Part shown: positions 10,832-18,484 of the stretch, in pieces
Layout: each line of letters starts with the position of its first letter
How positions within the stretch are numbered: the first letter of the stretch is position 1
Assembly: GCF_004341165.1 (NCBI RefSeq)
Contig: NZ_SLZR01000019.1
Location: 1-59,768 of the forward strand
Reading direction: 5' to 3'
From: Reinekea marinisedimentorum
Lineage (GTDB): Bacteria; Pseudomonadota; Gammaproteobacteria; Pseudomonadales; Natronospirillaceae
DNA length: 59,768 nt
The notes under the pieces: model-generated
What the model was told of the DNA's origin: nothing
The model's database searches: none
The model's input: only the letters and a program-made list of their open reading frames with translations
Made by a program: the position numbers and the translations under genes

Positions 10832-12040
10832 ATGACTAAAGATTTAACAGTGCTTGCTGCTCAGAGCAGCTACGACTGTCATGCGTTTCACGAAAGCCTG
10901 AAAGGCGGTAAGTCGTCAGGCACTCTGGCCATCAGTGCCTCCGGTTTAAAATTCAACATTCAGGGCAAAACCGTCAGCCTTCCCTTTGAACGCCTGGAAA
11001 TAAAGATGGGCGGTGCCAGCAACCGGCTGGTGTTCTTCAGTCATCCGGCCTTTCCCGACTGGTCTTTCTACAGCAGCGATCGCAAGGTTTTAAAAGACCC
11101 TCAGTTAAAACAGCACAATGCGCTGGCGCGGCATGTGAAGCGTGCAACCAACGTGCGTAAAAAGGCTTGGGCGGTTTTCTGGGCAGTCTGTTTATTAATT
11201 ATTGCCATACCGGCGTTGCTGCTGCTTCGCATGGACATTCTCACGAAATACGTTGCCGCCAAAATACCTGCGCAATGGGAGGAAAGCCTGGGTGAGTCTG
11301 CTATGGCTCAGTACCGTATTGGGCAGCAGCTTATGCCTGAAGACGAGGCAAACGAGATTTTACAGCCGCTGCTGGAACCCTTAATGGCGAACCTCGCTTC
11401 TGATCGCTATCAGTATGAGTTTCACATCGTCAACGACAGCAGTGTTAATGCCTTTGCCTTGCCGGGCGGCCAGGTGGTGATTAATTCTGCATTGATATTA
11501 ACGGCGGAGTCGGCTCCGGAATTGCTGGGTGTGGTCGCGCATGAAATCAGCCATGTGCAGGAACAGCATGGCGTGCGCAATGTCATCGGCAGTGCCGGTA
11601 CTTTTCTGGTGGTCTCGGCACTGGTAGGCGATGCCAGTGGTTTAATCGCCACGCTCAGTGGTGCAGCCCCATTGCTGCTTAATCAGAGTTACTCGCGTCG
11701 CTTTGAAACCGAGGCCGATGTGAAAGGCTTCGGGCTGCTGGTCGATGCCAATATTGACCCACAGGGTTTAACCAATTTTTTCGAGCGGCTAATGCTTGAA
11801 GAGCAAAAACAATTAGAGAGCATCGACAACGAAGATGCCCGTAATGCACTGGAAGCCGTAACGGCGCTTTTATCAACGCACCCGACAAACGATGCACGTA
11901 TTCAACGGTTGAATAAGTTAACCGCAGAGCTGGCATCAAACAGAGAGTTTTTGGATTTATCCAGGGAGTTTAGTCAACTGCAATCACTGGTTAAGCAGTT
12001 TGTAACTGAAAACAATGAAGAGGAATTGTTGCGTGAATAG
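10832..12040 (+). CDS. Membrane-anchored M48-family zinc metalloprotease
   Basis: I prefer the ATG at 10832 (402 residues) over a TTG 75 bp upstream. The N-terminal 100 residues form a beta-rich domain with G-T-L-A-I-S-A-S-G-L-K-F and a W-S-F-Y-S-S-D motif (PH/GRAM-like in appearance; I believe this is the conserved domain seen ahead of some bacterial M48 peptidases). A single membrane segment follows (about 111-131), then the peptidase domain with H-E-I-S-H (His237, His241) and the third zinc ligand in E-T-E-A-D (Glu292). A-F-A-L-P-G-G-Q-V precedes the zinc helix as in Oma1/YcaL/BepA relatives. Its stop overlaps the first of three AIM24 genes, indicating coexpression. Confidence 0.9.
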   Translation: MTKDLTVLAAQSSYDCHAFHESLKGGKSSGTLAISASGLKFNIQGKTVSLPFERLEIKMGGASNRLVFFSHPAFPDWSFYSSDRKVLKDPQLKQHNALARHVKRATNVRKKAWAVFWAVCLLIIAIPALLLLRMDILTKYVAAKIPAQWEESLGESAMAQYRIGQQLMPEDEANEILQPLLEPLMANLASDRYQYEFHIVNDSSVNAFALPGGQVVINSALILTAESAPELLGVVAHEISHVQEQHGVRNVIGSAGTFLVVSALVGDASGLIATLSGAAPLLLNQSYSRRFETEADVKGFGLLVDANIDPQGLTNFFERLMLEEQKQLESIDNEDARNALEAVTALLSTHPTNDARIQRLNKLTAELASNREFLDLSREFSQLQSLVKQFVTENNEEELLRE

Positions 12041-12740
12041 TGAGCAAGAAGATCTGCACGAAGTTGCCCTTAAAGGACACCTATCCGGCAAAATTCGTGG
12101 TTCTCAGGCTTTTTCTTATGTCGATATCGATTTAGAGCCTGGCGAGTCACTGACAACGGAAACCGATGCTATGTCGAGCATGGATGCCGATGTTGATTTA
12201 ACGGCAGCCTTTAATGGCGGTTTTTTCAGTGGTCTGGCGCGTAAGTTTTTTGGTGGTGAATCGCTGTTTATCAGTCGTTTTACCAACAATACCGATCAGT
12301 CGCGTCGCGTTACCTTTGTGCAACCAAACCCGGGGGAAATACGCTGTAAAACCCTGAACGATGAAACACTCTATTTGCAGCCGGGGGCTTATCTGGCATC
12401 CAGCGACGGTGTGAAGCTGGGGCTTTCCTGGGCGGGGTTCATTTCATTTATTTCACGCGAAGGCCTGTTCCGGTTGAAGGTCAGCGGCACGGGTGATGTG
12501 TTTTATGGCGCCTATGGCGCGTTACTGGAAAAGGAAGTAGACGGTGAGTACATCGTCGATACCAGTCACTTGGTTGCCTACGAACCGGGCGTCAGCCTGA
12601 AGCTGCAACTGGCCGGCGGCCTTTTTTCCAGCTTCTTCGGCGGCGAAGGCCTGGTCACACGAGTTGAGGGGCAGGGCAAAATTGTTGTGCAATCGCGCAG
12701 TATTTCCGGCCTGGCGGGTTGGTTAAACCCGAAGTTCTGA
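12033..12740 (+). CDS. AIM24-family protein, paralogue 1
   Basis: The likely start is the GTG at 12033, preceded by AGGAATTG and overlapping the M48 stop by 8 bp; this gives 235 residues. The protein is an all-beta AIM24/TIGR00266 (DUF124) domain: repeated glycine-rich hairpins with F-F-G-G-E-S-L-F-I (near residue 70), an L-Q-P-G-A-Y-L-A-S strand, D-G-E-Y-I-V-D-T and F-F-G-G-E-G-L-V-T-R near the C-terminus. No signal peptide or membrane segment. Family function is poorly defined; mitochondrial Aim24 affects inner-membrane organisation. Second gene of the M48-AIM24 operon. Confidence 0.85.
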   Translation: MNSEQEDLHEVALKGHLSGKIRGSQAFSYVDIDLEPGESLTTETDAMSSMDADVDLTAAFNGGFFSGLARKFFGGESLFISRFTNNTDQSRRVTFVQPNPGEIRCKTLNDETLYLQPGAYLASSDGVKLGLSWAGFISFISREGLFRLKVSGTGDVFYGAYGALLEKEVDGEYIVDTSHLVAYEPGVSLKLQLAGGLFSSFFGGEGLVTRVEGQGKIVVQSRSISGLAGWLNPKF

Positions 12741-12755
12741 TAAAGGATTGAACGC

Positions 12756-13439
12756 ATGAATATTGAATTGTTACATCGCCCCGGAAACACCGCTGCCAAG
12801 GTTACCCTGCAGCCGGGCGAAACCTGTACGGCCGAGTCCGGAGCCATGATCGCCATGAGCGGTCACATGGAAATTACCACCACGACCCATAAGAAAAAAT
12901 CCGGCAGCTTGTTGAAGGCTGTAAAACGCGTTTTTTCCGGTGAGTCGATTTTTCTTAACCACTTTGAGCCAACAGATAAACCGGGAGAGGTGTTCTTCGG
13001 TACCGATCTGGCCGGCGATATGATCGATTTAACGCTCGATAACGAAAACCTGATTGTGCAGAGCGGCTCTTTTCTGGCCTGTGAAGATTCCATCGATATC
13101 GGCTTTGGCTGGCAGGGTTTTAAAACCTTGTTTTCTGGTGAACGGGTGTTTTGGCTAAACCTGAAGGGTTCCGGAAAGGTGGTGCTTTCCTCATTTGGCG
13201 CTATCTACCCGGTTGAGGTGGATGGTGAATACATTGTCGATGGTGGTCATATCGTAGCCTTTAATGAAACGCTCGATTTCAGCATCAGTAAAGCCGGTAA
13301 GAGTTGGATTCACTCCTTCCTTGGCGGTGAAGGTCTAGTGTGTAAATTCAAAGGTAAGGGCACGGTCTGGTGCCAGTCTCATAATCCGGGCAGCTTCGGA
13401 CCGTTGCTTACCCCTAACTTACGTGCTCGCAAAGCCTAA
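12756..13439 (+). CDS. AIM24-family protein, paralogue 2
   Basis: This 227-residue protein is the second tandem AIM24 copy, 15 bp after the first. It shares the same landmarks: F-S-G-E-S-I-F-L-N, L-I-V-Q-S-G-S-F-L-A-C, G-W-Q-G-F-K-T-L-F-S-G-E-R-V-F-W, D-G-E-Y-I-V-D-G-G-H-I-V-A-F and L-G-G-E-G-L-V-C-K-F-K-G-K-G. Divergence between copies is large, so this is an old duplication rather than a recent one. Predicted to be cytoplasmic or peripheral to the membrane. Confidence 0.85.
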   Translation: MNIELLHRPGNTAAKVTLQPGETCTAESGAMIAMSGHMEITTTTHKKKSGSLLKAVKRVFSGESIFLNHFEPTDKPGEVFFGTDLAGDMIDLTLDNENLIVQSGSFLACEDSIDIGFGWQGFKTLFSGERVFWLNLKGSGKVVLSSFGAIYPVEVDGEYIVDGGHIVAFNETLDFSISKAGKSWIHSFLGGEGLVCKFKGKGTVWCQSHNPGSFGPLLTPNLRARKA

Positions 13440-13451
13440 AGGAGAACAGCA

Positions 13452-14456
13452 ATGACAACGGAAACTTGCGATATCGTACTCAGCGGTAAGTTAGTGAATG
13501 GAGCGGATAAAGACCAGGTACAGCAAAAACTGGGTACCTTGTTTAAAACCACCGAAGCAAAGATTGCAGAGCTGTTCACGCGTGCGCCAGTGGCGATTAA
13601 AAAATCGGTTGATGTCAGCACCGCTCAGAAGTATCAGCGCGCAATTGAAAAGGCCGGTGCTGAATGCGTTTTGAAAACACAGCAGCCCCCGGTTGCCAAA
13701 GAACAGCAGGAACCCTCATTGAGCCTGGTTCCGATGCCGGAGCAACAAGCCGAAAAAGTCGAGCCAACGGGGGTGCAGAAACCGAAGAAGCCGGGTTATG
13801 ACTTTGAAATTACCGGTCAGCCCGATTACAGCTTTTTAACGGTGCAGATCCCGGCAAACGAAACGCTCAAGGTGGAAGCCTCGGCCATGGCGACCATGGA
13901 CACCAACATCGAGATGAAAACCAAGCTGAAGGGTGGCTTTGGTCGATTCCTCACCGGTGAAAGCCTGTTTATAAACGATTTCACCGCCGCCAACGGCCCG
14001 GGCGAAATTGGCATAGCACCGGGCGCTCCGGGAGATTTACTGCACCAGTATCTGGATGGCAATACCATCTATCTGCAGAACTCAGCGTACGTTGCCTCAA
14101 CGGCCGACGTGACGGTTGAAAGCAAGTGGCAGGGCATGGTGAAGGGGTTCTTCTCCGGTGAAAGCTTGTTTTTAATTCGCTGCAGCGGCAAGGGTGACCT
14201 CTGGTTTAACACCTACGGTGCCATTATCGAGATCGACGTTGAAGACGACTATGTCGTTGATACCGGCAATATCGTTGCTTTCACCGAAGGGCTGGAATAT
14301 ACCATTCGCAAGGTTGGCGGTTATAAATCGCTGTTTTTCTCCGGCGAAGGGTTAGTGTGCCGCTTCAGTGGTAAAGGCAAGGTGTGGATTCAGACCCGCA
14401 GTGCTGCGGCCTTTGTTTCCTGGGCGCACTGGTTCCGCCCGGTTAAGCGTAAATAA
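13452..14456 (+). CDS. AIM24-family protein with extra N-terminal domain, paralogue 3
   Basis: This 334-residue protein has two parts. Residues 1-80 form a small alpha/beta domain (C-D-I-V-L-S-G-K-L, L-G-T-L-F-K-T-T-E-A-K, K-Y-Q-R-A-I-E-K-A-G-A-E-C). I have the impression similar sequences precede other gammaproteobacterial membrane-associated domains, but cannot name a family. A Pro/Glu/Gln-rich linker (about 80-110) leads to a complete AIM24 domain with L-T-G-E-S-L-F-I-N, F-F-S-G-E-S-L-F-L and F-S-G-E-G-L-V-C-R-F. A GGAGAA site precedes the ATG. It ends the four-gene cluster. Confidence 0.82.
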   Translation: MTTETCDIVLSGKLVNGADKDQVQQKLGTLFKTTEAKIAELFTRAPVAIKKSVDVSTAQKYQRAIEKAGAECVLKTQQPPVAKEQQEPSLSLVPMPEQQAEKVEPTGVQKPKKPGYDFEITGQPDYSFLTVQIPANETLKVEASAMATMDTNIEMKTKLKGGFGRFLTGESLFINDFTAANGPGEIGIAPGAPGDLLHQYLDGNTIYLQNSAYVASTADVTVESKWQGMVKGFFSGESLFLIRCSGKGDLWFNTYGAIIEIDVEDDYVVDTGNIVAFTEGLEYTIRKVGGYKSLFFSGEGLVCRFSGKGKVWIQTRSAAAFVSWAHWFRPVKRK

Positions 14457-14763: not shown

Positions 14764-15147
14764 TTGATTACAGACAGAGAAAAACTCATGGAGACCCGCA
14801 GGCACTGCAAGGATCTAAAACATACCGAAATAGCAGTGCAATCGCTTGATTTCAGCGGGTCAATACTGGATGTCAGCCCGGCCTGGCTGGATGCGATGGG
14901 TTACCAGCGTGAAGAAGTCATTGGCCGGCATTTTTTTGAATTTCTGGATAAGCAATCGCTGATGAAGGTCGATAGTTGCTTTCCGCGGTTAAAAGACTTT
15001 GGCTATGTAGATGCCGTGCCGTTGGGGTTGATGCGTAAAGATAAGTCCGTACTCAAGGTTACCCTAACCGGCACCTCCCTTTATGGTCCAAACGGCACTT
15101 TTATTCGTACCTTTTGCGAGCTGACACCCGCTGCGAATGAACAATAG
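14764..15147 (+). CDS. Single PAS-domain protein
   Basis: This 127-residue protein is nearly all one PAS domain: F-S-G-S-I-L-D-V-S-P-A-W-L-D-A-M-G-Y... with the G-Y-x-R-E-E-V-I-G-R-H-F-F-E-F motif near residue 45-60 and a C-terminal strand T-L-T-G-T-S-L-Y-G-P-N-G. No output domain is attached, so it would sense a ligand or redox state and pass the signal by protein contact. A TTG start at 14764 is chosen because a GGGAGG site sits 4-9 bp upstream; the first internal ATG is 24 bp later and has a poorer site. Partner unknown; a PAS-GGDEF protein is encoded 3 kb downstream. Confidence 0.75.
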   Translation: MITDREKLMETRRHCKDLKHTEIAVQSLDFSGSILDVSPAWLDAMGYQREEVIGRHFFEFLDKQSLMKVDSCFPRLKDFGYVDAVPLGLMRKDKSVLKVTLTGTSLYGPNGTFIRTFCELTPAANEQ

Positions 15148-15343
15148 GCGTTGGATTTCGTACGGTGAGTGAATTCAGGCGTTCACTCTTTAAATCATCA
15201 TATTTAACCGTTAGTCTGAGCCTTGGGTACTTCTGAACAGTTCACTTACGCAATGGCTCTGACTCATGTCTGCTCTCAGCCTGTTCAGGCAAAGCGTATT
15301 GTTCAGAGGAACCCTCGTTGCAGATTATCGTACTGGGGTTGTT

Positions 15344-18300
15344 ATGAAACTTGTTAGATACCTGACCATTGGTCTTATTACCTTTGTTCTGGCGGTGTAT
15401 TCGCTGGTTTGGTTGTTGTCGCCTGTTGCTGTGCGCATGGCCGCTAAAAAGCCTTTGGCAGAGTACGGTTTAACGCTCAGTTCCGATTCTGTGGTGCGCC
15501 TGAACCTCTTCAATTCTACGCTTTCCGTTCAGGATTTTGTGTTGCTGCACAACGAGGCACCCACCTATTCACTGGACTGGCTGCACGTTAAGTACAGCCT
15601 GCTGAAGCTGCTGGTGAAAGAGGTGCGCATTGAAAGCGTTGAGCTGGATGGCATGTCGCTGCTGGCAAGCAATAATCAGGGCGAAGTTACGGTTGCCGGT
15701 GTGGCTGTGCCGCAGGCAACGGAGCCGGCTGTTGGCGAGCCGGTAGCAGAACAGCCCGAAGCCGAAGAAGAGGCCGGCATGGCCGTTTCGGTTAACGTGC
15801 CTGAGGTGCTGTTGCAGAACCTGCGCTTAACCTTCGAGAACCTTGGCCATGCGCACGAGCTGAAGATTAATGAGCTGCGCATTACCGATACGCTGTTTAA
15901 TGAAGGTGCCCTGAGCACTGCATTGCAGCTGGATGCCCAGCTTGATGGTATGGCCATCAACCTGAGTAATCGCCTGCAGCTTGATGAGCAGGATATTCAG
16001 GCACAGGTTAACCTGCAGCTGAGCAGCCTAACGCCAGAAAGCCTGCTGTACCTGTTACCGGAAAACATCGCAGCGCTGAACTTCAGCTCCGACCTTGAAC
16101 TGAGCAGCGACATTCATTTCAGTGGAAACCGCCTGAACATCCGTAATACTGATTTGGCTGTTGCTCTAGCGCAGCTTGATTTGCAGGAGCAGCAGGTGAG
16201 TGCCGGGCTGGAGACCTTTGCCTTCTCGGTGTCGAACCTGGCCGCTGAATACCACCTTGATACTGCCTTCGCCAGCGCTAATGGTGAATCGGCGATTCAG
16301 CTGGCAGGGCTTGCGGCCGATATCACGGCAACCGGCAACCCGCAGCTGACGCTTGGTTCCTTCGACAGCGGAACCATCGCTTTTGATCTGGATAGCCAGA
16401 GCCTGGCCGAAACCCTGAAGCAATTCGACATGGAATCTTACCTGACTGCGCCAGCATCGACGGAAGCGGAGGACGAACCTGTTCCTGAAACGGCTGCCAG
16501 TGCAGCTGCGACCATTAAGCCGCTCTCCATCTCCCTGCCAAAGCTGCAGTTACAAAGCCTTGGCTTGAGCCTGGAAAACCAGGGGCAAGTGCATGAGGTG
16601 CAGGTTGATGACCTGCAGATTGCCGATACCCGGCTGAATAACGATACCTTCAGCACGGCGCTGACCCTTGCCGGGCAGTTAGATGCCATTCAGGTTGGTT
16701 TGAGTAACAGCATCAGTGTGAACGCCCAGGAAATGCAGGCGCTGGTCGATCTGAACCTGAGCAACATTACACCGGAAAGCTATGGCTATCTGTTACCCGG
16801 GAATATTACTGAGCTGGGTTTCAGCTCAGACGTTCAACTCAGCAGTGAAGTGAAGCTGAATGGCGGTGTGCTCAATATAGCGGGCGCTTCTGCGGCGTTG
16901 GCTTTATCTGCACTAAATGTTCAGGAGCAGCGGCTCAGCGCCGGTTTGCAGAGCCTTTCATTCTCGCTGAGCGATGTCGCGGCAGAGTATCAGCTGGAAA
17001 CGCTTGTCGCGCAGGCAACGGGTGAAGCCTCAGTGCAGCTGGCAGGGCTGAATGCAGCTATGGCAGACAGCGGTGACACCCTGATAAAGGTGGGGTCGTT
17101 CGATAGCGGCACGGTAGCGTTCGATATCAACGATCAGGATTTCTCGGCGCAGTTAAACCAGCTGACGGTGGAATCTCTGCTGGCGTCACAGGTGATGTCG
17201 GTAGACGGCATGCCGGCCATGCTGGTGATGGATTCGATCAGTGTGAAGGATGTCGCCGCCAGTAATCAGGCGGTGAGCATTGCCACTGTTGAGCTGGGTG
17301 GAGGCCGTATATCGGTGATCCGCAATGCCGCCGGTGAACTGACCACGCTGGTGGATACCGCGGCCCTTAGCCCCGCAGAAAGCCTGCCGGGTGAAGAAAC
17401 CGAGCCGGAGGTGGCTGAACAGCAGAATGCAGAAACCGAATCTGCAGCGCCCGCACCGGCCATTCAGCTGGGCCAAATCCTGTTAACGGTGCCTGTTAAG
17501 ATCAGCATTGAAGATCAGAGCAACCGCACGCCTTTTGCGAAAGTCTTTGAGCTTCATAAGGCTGATATCCGCTCGGTTGACAGCCGTCAGCCGGAGCTAA
17601 AAACGACCTTCGATGTCGCCTTGAAAGACGCCGACTATTTCACCCTGCAAACCGATGGCTGGGTGCAGTTGTTTACACCAGAGATCAACCTTGCAATGAC
17701 CGCAACCGCCCGGGAGTTTCCGATGAATGAGGTCGCGCCCTACCTGAAGGATACGCTCGGTTTCGAGGTGAAATCCGGTCAGTTGGATGCCGACATCACC
17801 GCCGAAGTGGTGGCCGACCAGCTCGACAGCGATGTATTGCTGTTGATGCGAGGCGCTAACTTTGCCGCCAGTGAAGCGTCGGATGAGGGCAGTAACTTCA
17901 TTGGCCAAACGGCGATACCGCTGAATGTCGCGCTGAACATGCTGAAAGACGGCGACGGCAATATTGAACTGAAAATACCGGTGAACGGCGACATCAACGA
18001 CCCGAGTTTTGGCTTGCAGCATGTGCTGGGGCTGGTCGTGAAAAAGGTTGTGCTGGCGCAGGCAAAGAATTACTTGCTGACCACCCTGGTCCCTTATGCA
18101 AAGGTGGTTTCGGTGGCCGTTGTCGCCGGTGAGCAGGCGCTGAAAGTCCGCTTTGAAGACCTGCCCTATGCCGAGAACCAGATTGAATTACTGGCGGAAC
18201 AAACAGAGTTTGCAGATCAACTGGCAACGCTGATGACCGACAAGCCTGAGTTAACCGTTAATGTCTGTGCGGTAGCCATTGCCTCGGAATCTGTAGCCGC

Positions 18301-18484
18301 ACCGACGGCTGAAAACCCTCAGTTGGTTCTGGATGCCTCGGCAGTGGCCTCGGCGCGTGCGCAAACCTTTAAGAGCTACCTGGTGAATAATTATGCCGTG
18401 GCCTCATCCCGGTTGTTGCTTTGTTCACCGGAAATCGACAACGGCAAAGAACCACAGTCCAGAATCAAGTTCTCTGTTCTGTAG
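15344..18484 (+). CDS. AsmA-like DUF748 envelope protein with internal duplication
   Basis: The start at ATG 15344 places a signal-anchor (MKLVRYLTIGLITFVLAVYSLVWLL) at the N-terminus, giving 1046 residues. The rest is beta-rich, in the style of AsmA/TamB/DUF748 proteins, which are held in the inner membrane and extend into the periplasm. Two tandem units of about 220 residues (about 15780-16446 and 16518-17184) share T-P-E-S-x2-Y-L-L-P-x-N-I and G-S-F-D-S-G-T-x-A-F-D. Both landmarks are separated by exactly 738 bp. Each unit is preceded by an acidic Ala/Pro/Glu linker, and a third linker leads into the DUF748 region. The C-terminal 170 residues resemble an OmpA-like fold with two cysteines. 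Likely role: lipid transfer or outer-membrane homeostasis, inferred. Confidence 0.8.
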   Translation: MKLVRYLTIGLITFVLAVYSLVWLLSPVAVRMAAKKPLAEYGLTLSSDSVVRLNLFNSTLSVQDFVLLHNEAPTYSLDWLHVKYSLLKLLVKEVRIESVELDGMSLLASNNQGEVTVAGVAVPQATEPAVGEPVAEQPEAEEEAGMAVSVNVPEVLLQNLRLTFENLGHAHELKINELRITDTLFNEGALSTALQLDAQLDGMAINLSNRLQLDEQDIQAQVNLQLSSLTPESLLYLLPENIAALNFSSDLELSSDIHFSGNRLNIRNTDLAVALAQLDLQEQQVSAGLETFAFSVSNLAAEYHLDTAFASANGESAIQLAGLAADITATGNPQLTLGSFDSGTIAFDLDSQSLAETLKQFDMESYLTAPASTEAEDEPVPETAASAAATIKPLSISLPKLQLQSLGLSLENQGQVHEVQVDDLQIADTRLNNDTFSTALTLAGQLDAIQVGLSNSISVNAQEMQALVDLNLSNITPESYGYLLPGNITELGFSSDVQLSSEVKLNGGVLNIAGASAALALSALNVQEQRLSAGLQSLSFSLSDVAAEYQLETLVAQATGEASVQLAGLNAAMADSGDTLIKVGSFDSGTVAFDINDQDFSAQLNQLTVESLLASQVMSVDGMPAMLVMDSISVKDVAASNQAVSIATVELGGGRISVIRNAAGELTTLVDTAALSPAESLPGEETEPEVAEQQNAETESAAPAPAIQLGQILLTVPVKISIEDQSNRTPFAKVFELHKADIRSVDSRQPELKTTFDVALKDADYFTLQTDGWVQLFTPEINLAMTATAREFPMNEVAPYLKDTLGFEVKSGQLDADITAEVVADQLDSDVLLLMRGANFAASEASDEGSNFIGQTAIPLNVALNMLKDGDGNIELKIPVNGDINDPSFGLQHVLGLVVKKVVLAQAKNYLLTTLVPYAKVVSVAVVAGEQALKVRFEDLPYAENQIELLAEQTEFADQLATLMTDKPELTVNVCAVAIASESVAAPTAENPQLVLDASAVASARAQTFKSYLVNNYAVASSRLLLCSPEIDNGKEPQSRIKFSVL

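Follow-up and report, generated by a model that had tools for sequence, protein, structure and literature searches.

What does a membrane-anchored M48 metalloprotease do in one operon with three different members of the AIM24 family? The question is raised by a locus at positions 10,832 to 14,456 of the window, that is, the whole stretch of 59,768 nucleotides analyzed here (contig NZ_SLZR01000019.1 of Reinekea marinisedimentorum, positions 1 to 59,768). The locus consists of four consecutive genes, with branch support given as the Shimodaira-Hasegawa-like approximate likelihood ratio test (SH-aLRT):

10832..12040, plus strand: PH-M48 protease gene, 402 amino acids (Pfam Peptidase_M48, E value 1.2e-29)
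12033..12740, plus strand: AIM24-1, first paralogue (PF01987, E value 3.6e-57; own clade of 80 rows, SH-aLRT 99)
12756..13439, plus strand: AIM24-2, second paralogue (PF01987, E value 1.4e-66; own clade, SH-aLRT 100)
13452..14456, plus strand: AIM24-3, third paralogue (PF01987, E value 1.2e-66; own clade, SH-aLRT 99)

Sequence comparison confirmed that this M48-AIM24 module is real and found across phyla. It brings two known families together in a new way, and the conservation of the four-gene order across very different bacteria speaks for a single, so far unstudied, machine at the membrane of the cell.

The assignment of the genes to their families is clear. The three AIM24 proteins score 193.8, 224.6, and 224.8 bits against PF01987 (cut-off, 25.7) and 200.3, 202.8, and 220.6 bits against TIGR00266 (cut-off, 96.6), they have the fold of the solved members 1yox and 1pg6, and they are the only AIM24 proteins of the source genome, while the Pfam M48 score of the protease is also far above the cut-off. 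AIM24-1 starts with a GTG inside the 3' end of the M48 gene, giving the overlap with the first AIM24 gene that a preliminary description of this DNA had pointed out, although an in-frame ATG at position 12015 is a possible alternative start. The same description gave gaps of 8 to 15 bp, which holds for the 15 bases between AIM24-1 and AIM24-2 and the 12 bases between AIM24-2 and AIM24-3; the value of 8 is the overlap and not a gap.

Conservation and inheritance of the four-gene unit

The order sample comprised 293 genomes, including the source genome. AIM24 was present in 63 of them and in three tandem copies in 16, and in all 15 of the other triplet genomes the protease lies directly upstream, in the identical order M48-AIM24-1-2-3. 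A search with the protease alignment found the full-length PH-M48 protein in 16 of the 293 genomes, the same 16 that carry the trio, and in none of the other 277 (one of these, G083, has a partial match with two stops that lacks the PH-like part). Since none of the other 54 AIM24 places in this sample exceeds 39% identity to its best-scoring trio member, no orphan trio gene was seen, so that within the order the four genes appear to be either all present or all absent. Nor was such a protease found beside the 5 single AIM24 genes whose surroundings were checked. Identities to the proteins of the window in the order sample were 73 to 76% for AIM24-2, 59 to 72% for AIM24-1, 57 to 62% for AIM24-3, and 42 to 49% for the protease. 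The trio is not common, as a class-wide search for AIM24-2 (E value 1e-30) retrieved only the source genome among 369, and three sampled members of its own genus have no AIM24 gene at all.

Beyond the order, a genome-wide scan with the AIM24-2 alignment as query (one genome per species, best 80 of 214 relatives kept) recovered the same arrangement. AIM24-3 is downstream in all 80 kept loci (two of them cut by the contig end), AIM24-1 is upstream in 78, with the contig ending there in the other two, and the protease is upstream in 68 of the 75 loci with room for it, 5 of the 80 having none. The loci are titled as Gamma- and Betaproteobacteria, Verrucomicrobiota, Lentisphaerota, Planctomycetota, Acidobacteriota, Spirochaetota, Myxococcota, Bacteroidota, and others, with the proviso that some of the bin names seem mistaken (a "Pedobacter" is placed among Moraxellaceae in the tree, for instance). 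All four genes are also carried by complete plasmid records of two Bacteroidota, Flammeovirga kamogawensis and Aureibacter tunicatorum, where they are annotated as one "M48 family metallopeptidase" and three "TIGR00266 family protein" genes. Recurrence in all the order triplets and in loci titled as several phyla argues that the gene order is not due to chance, and the linkage is clearly not restricted to the genome in which the preliminary description noticed it. A second class sample of 236 genomes, from the class of G663 (the genome of locus L101, titled Verrucomicrobiales), contains AIM24-2 in 6 genomes and the protease in the same 6; in 5 of them the two share a contig and lie no more than about 1 kb apart. 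The class sample around a planctomycete genome had only 9 genomes and added nothing.

In the 7 loci where the protease does not adjoin the trio, a full-length protease was found elsewhere in 6 of the 7 genomes (E value below 1e-111), in one case by a second trio (L114). The genome bin G660 holds both this trio, with a protease alongside, and another without one (L083). We also considered a rhomboid-family membrane protease as the usual companion of unlinked PH-M48 genes, as it adjoins one of them at L108 (L108:3919-4878), but it was present in only 1 of the 6 such loci.

Comparison of the loci and of the four gene trees indicates that the genes stay together and are passed on as one unit. For the 69 of 85 loci in which all four genes were present and long enough (L035, L066, and L078 were excluded), every pair of trees shares 29 to 36 of 66 splits, against means of 0.2 to 0.3 in shuffles, with only one supported conflict over the six pairwise comparisons. 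In a tree of 52 rows chosen from these loci, the Betaproteobacteria appear in two places among the Gammaproteobacteria, a pattern compatible with, but no proof of, transfer of the unit as a whole. When flanking genes were clustered by similarity, the largest clusters covered 6 loci, for the most part close relatives or widespread gene families; as no flanking gene recurs widely, the unit consists, as far as seen, of these four genes.

Several observations concern the neighborhood. In the window the module is followed by a lone PAS-domain gene (14764-15147) and by a gene for a DUF748 protein of 1072 residues (15266-18484), neither of which is among the recurring flanking genes shown. At six loci, most of them titled Moraxellaceae (L056, L057, L058, L059, L060, and L067), a second M48 gene lies just downstream of AIM24-3 on the minus strand; it has the size of HtpX (284 to 288 amino acids) and is 26 to 29% identical. 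Scans of the sequence found no promoter (3.7 in shuffles) and 6 terminators (4.8 in shuffles), and the PADLOC defense-protein models gave no match at an E value of 0.01 for any of the four proteins. In a phage library the protease matches two PHROGs of unknown function, while AIM24-2 and AIM24-3 have no match (AIM24-1 was left out of the query). An AIM24-like frame with 35% identity is found in Pseudomonas phage Y1 (OQ572403.1, 62688-63299), in an unannotated record.

Three diverged AIM24 proteins and a predicted single-pass protease

The paralogues are strongly diverged, as the preliminary description had noted: across the kept loci, mean identity is 34 to 38% between paralogue pairs and 63 to 67% between orthologue pairs. 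A tree of 245 AIM24 proteins, from 80 loci and 5 single genes, was built after removal of 11 of 96 loci as duplicates by AIM24-2, with a quick method that warned of meeting long branches. In it, AIM24-1, -2, and -3 form three deep clades with SH-aLRT values of 99, 100, and 99, and in a tree of 20 loci and 52 singles each again forms one group, with lower support (99, 93, and 90). The three paralogues have 14, 16, and 17 invariant residues of their own. Together with the all-or-none occurrence in the order sample, this supports the earlier proposal of diverged subunits instead of redundancy and shows that the three genes are not interchangeable. Hydropathy indicates no membrane helix in nearly all rows, and the AIM24 proteins therefore look cytosolic. 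Their nine loops, three per protein, contain 0 to 1% acidic residues, against 9 to 11% in the whole proteins. In AIM24-2, residues C196, C206, and H209 are nearly invariant, the last two being special to this paralogue, and they could possibly form a metal or redox site.

In AIM24-3, about 115 residues precede the AIM24 domain:

residues ~5-76: N-terminal L7/L12 C-terminal-domain/ClpS-like domain, followed by a linker
residues ~117-316: AIM24 domain

The extra N-terminal domain had been noticed before, and it is indeed present, being L7/L12-like in the window and in 14 of the 16 order members. Other loci have a GYF_2 domain instead (L083, L080, L073, L071, L099, L097, and L088), and none was found in some other lineages. 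As it differs between lineages, this domain is outside the conserved core of the module.

The protease has three parts:

residues ~12-95: putative PH-like domain of the modeled protein, judged against the superfold of solved PH/PTB/FERM-F3 domains (seven strands and a C-terminal helix)
residues ~110-132: single membrane helix, assigned by inspection
residues ~146-395: M48 metalloprotease domain, with HEISH at 237-241 and E292/D296

The zinc motif is kept throughout the family, with HExxH in 73 of 73 rows and ExxxD in 72; the only row without the latter (L078) comes from a gene split over two frames. The membrane helix has a hydropathy score of at least 1.6 in 72 of the 73 rows, and its N-terminal side is the more positive one in 71, the other 2 being ties. 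The protease is thus predicted to be a single-pass inner-membrane protein with the PH-like domain in the cytosol and the catalytic domain in the periplasm (extracytoplasmic). The loop GGASDR of the PH-like domain was evaluated as a mark of partnership with the trio, but the pattern GGxxxR, found in 65 of the 73 rows, also occurs in one of three trio-less proteins, and we keep it only as a lead. A scan of genomes with the single M48 protein as query gave 48 pattern matches, none of them confirmed.

A working model and its alternatives

We propose that the four genes code for one module: a transmembrane quality-control protease that cuts outside, with a hetero-oligomer of AIM24 proteins as its scaffold or sensor on the cytosolic side of the membrane, a reading to which we give a probability of about 0.5. 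AIM24-1, -2, and -3 would assemble in the cytosol as an obligate hetero-oligomer based on the three-fold repeats of their fold. This hetero-oligomer may sit against the inner surface of the membrane by way of the loops, one in each repeat, that lack acidic residues. With the catalytic domain predicted outside and the AIM24 proteins inside, any control would have to pass through the membrane by way of the PH-like domain and the helix. The least certain steps are that the assembly docks on the PH-like domain, which could alternatively be a lipid reader, and that the docked assembly localizes or switches the protease, so that the state of the membrane inside would set where or when it cuts. In a disturbed membrane, the outer M48 domain would then cut membrane or envelope proteins. 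In a bolder version, a heteromeric ring of AIM24 proteins in the cytosol, shared across phyla, would detect the lipid state of the inner membrane and switch the periplasmic M48 domain through the PH-like domain and helix; the functions of mitochondrial Aim24 and OMA1 could be a split descendant or a parallel of it. This version is speculative, and we consider it doubtful.

Some genomes weigh against this model. A Kistimonas genome has the trio and no protease that we could find, and three loci from the class of G663 (L104, L105, and L106) code for a weaker full-length PH-M48 relative with single AIM24 genes only and no trio. The protease family is therefore wider than the module. An alternative explanation is shared regulation only, in which one envelope-stress response drives the co-transcription of an AIM24 hetero-oligomer, organizing lipids or the membrane, and of a protease working side by side with it, with no contact. 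The 7 loci where the two are not adjacent agree with it, as does the PH-like domain, which is conserved less than most of the catalytic domain, and both the contact between AIM24 and the protease and the function of the module are inferred. However, shared regulation need not produce the exact co-occurrence of the order sample, nor keep the protease in the genomes of unlinked loci, and we regard this explanation as possible but rather unlikely.

The preliminary description had also offered the AIM24 proteins as substrates or inhibitors, which would have to bind the active site of the protease. The single operon and the overlap of the protease gene with AIM24-1 would suit such a relationship, but charge puts the catalytic domain outside in all rows except the two ties and the AIM24 proteins, nearly all without a membrane helix, look cytosolic. 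This makes a role as substrate unlikely, and we consider the whole proposal highly improbable. Another view takes the AIM24 hetero-oligomer as the main element, organizing membrane or respiratory complexes, and the protease as a housekeeping or assembly factor that cuts a periplasmic client anchoring the assembly. In the order sample, conservation is higher for the AIM24 genes than for the protease gene, and yeast Aim24 works on membrane architecture, according to the available text of PMC3975624. Yet no candidate client recurs widely around the loci, the largest flanking clusters being those of 6 loci, and we find this arrangement quite unlikely.

Relation to known systems and significance

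Both families have members in the mitochondrial inner membrane. The accessible parts of the yeast study (PMC3975624) locate Aim24, which acts with MICOS, either in the inner membrane or on its matrix side. The protein withstands alkaline extraction although no helix is predicted for it, is predicted to be TRAP-like, and runs in a complex of about 400 kDa. The module proteins belong to the family named after it (PF01987) and likewise have no predicted membrane helix, while the portions of the yeast work available to us describe one protein and no M48 partner, unlike the three diverged paralogues kept together here. OMA1 is an M48 membrane protease that cleaves AIFM1 in the intermembrane space, according to the available text of PMC13226697. 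That space is equivalent to the periplasm, and the catalytic side of the module protease is predicted by hydropathy and charge only; its cytosolic PH-like domain is a difference, and we found no AIM24 linkage reported for OMA1 in the sources covered. The parallel with Oma1 drawn earlier is partial: it covers the common, broad M48 family and a sidedness like that of the mitochondrial proteins in the text available, and it is an analogy rather than evidence of homology. No OMA1 chain is among the 6 Protein Data Bank sequences matched by the protease, whose best solved matches are 3c37 and BepA.

The M48 catalytic domain is common to BepA, LoiP, HtpX, and the module protease. The latter remains far below the NCBIfam equivalog cut-offs, with 97.2 of 570 bits for BepA, 50 of 365 for LoiP, and 34.3 of 355 for the best HtpX model. 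BepA carries repeats and HtpX several helices; the module protease, in contrast, has the PH-like domain and one helix. The single AIM24/TIGR00266 genes belong to the same family as the trio and differ from it, in the 54 non-trio places of the order sample, by the low identities given above. They include those of the ter clusters, group I of which carries an AIM24 gene; no prokaryotic role had been ascribed to AIM24 as of 2018, according to the text available from the same source (PMC5822837). Full-text literature searches, with most subscription papers outside their coverage, found no paper whose title or abstract start describes such an AIM24-M48 module.

As a compact unit of four genes, the module is a deletable system for finding the role of AIM24. 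The available sections of PMC3975624 leave open how yeast Aim24 shapes the inner membrane, a question that the bacterial module could inform. It could also reveal how the cell controls, from within, a protease that works on the far side of the membrane, and it connects, in bacteria, the families of two proteins of the mitochondrial inner membrane.

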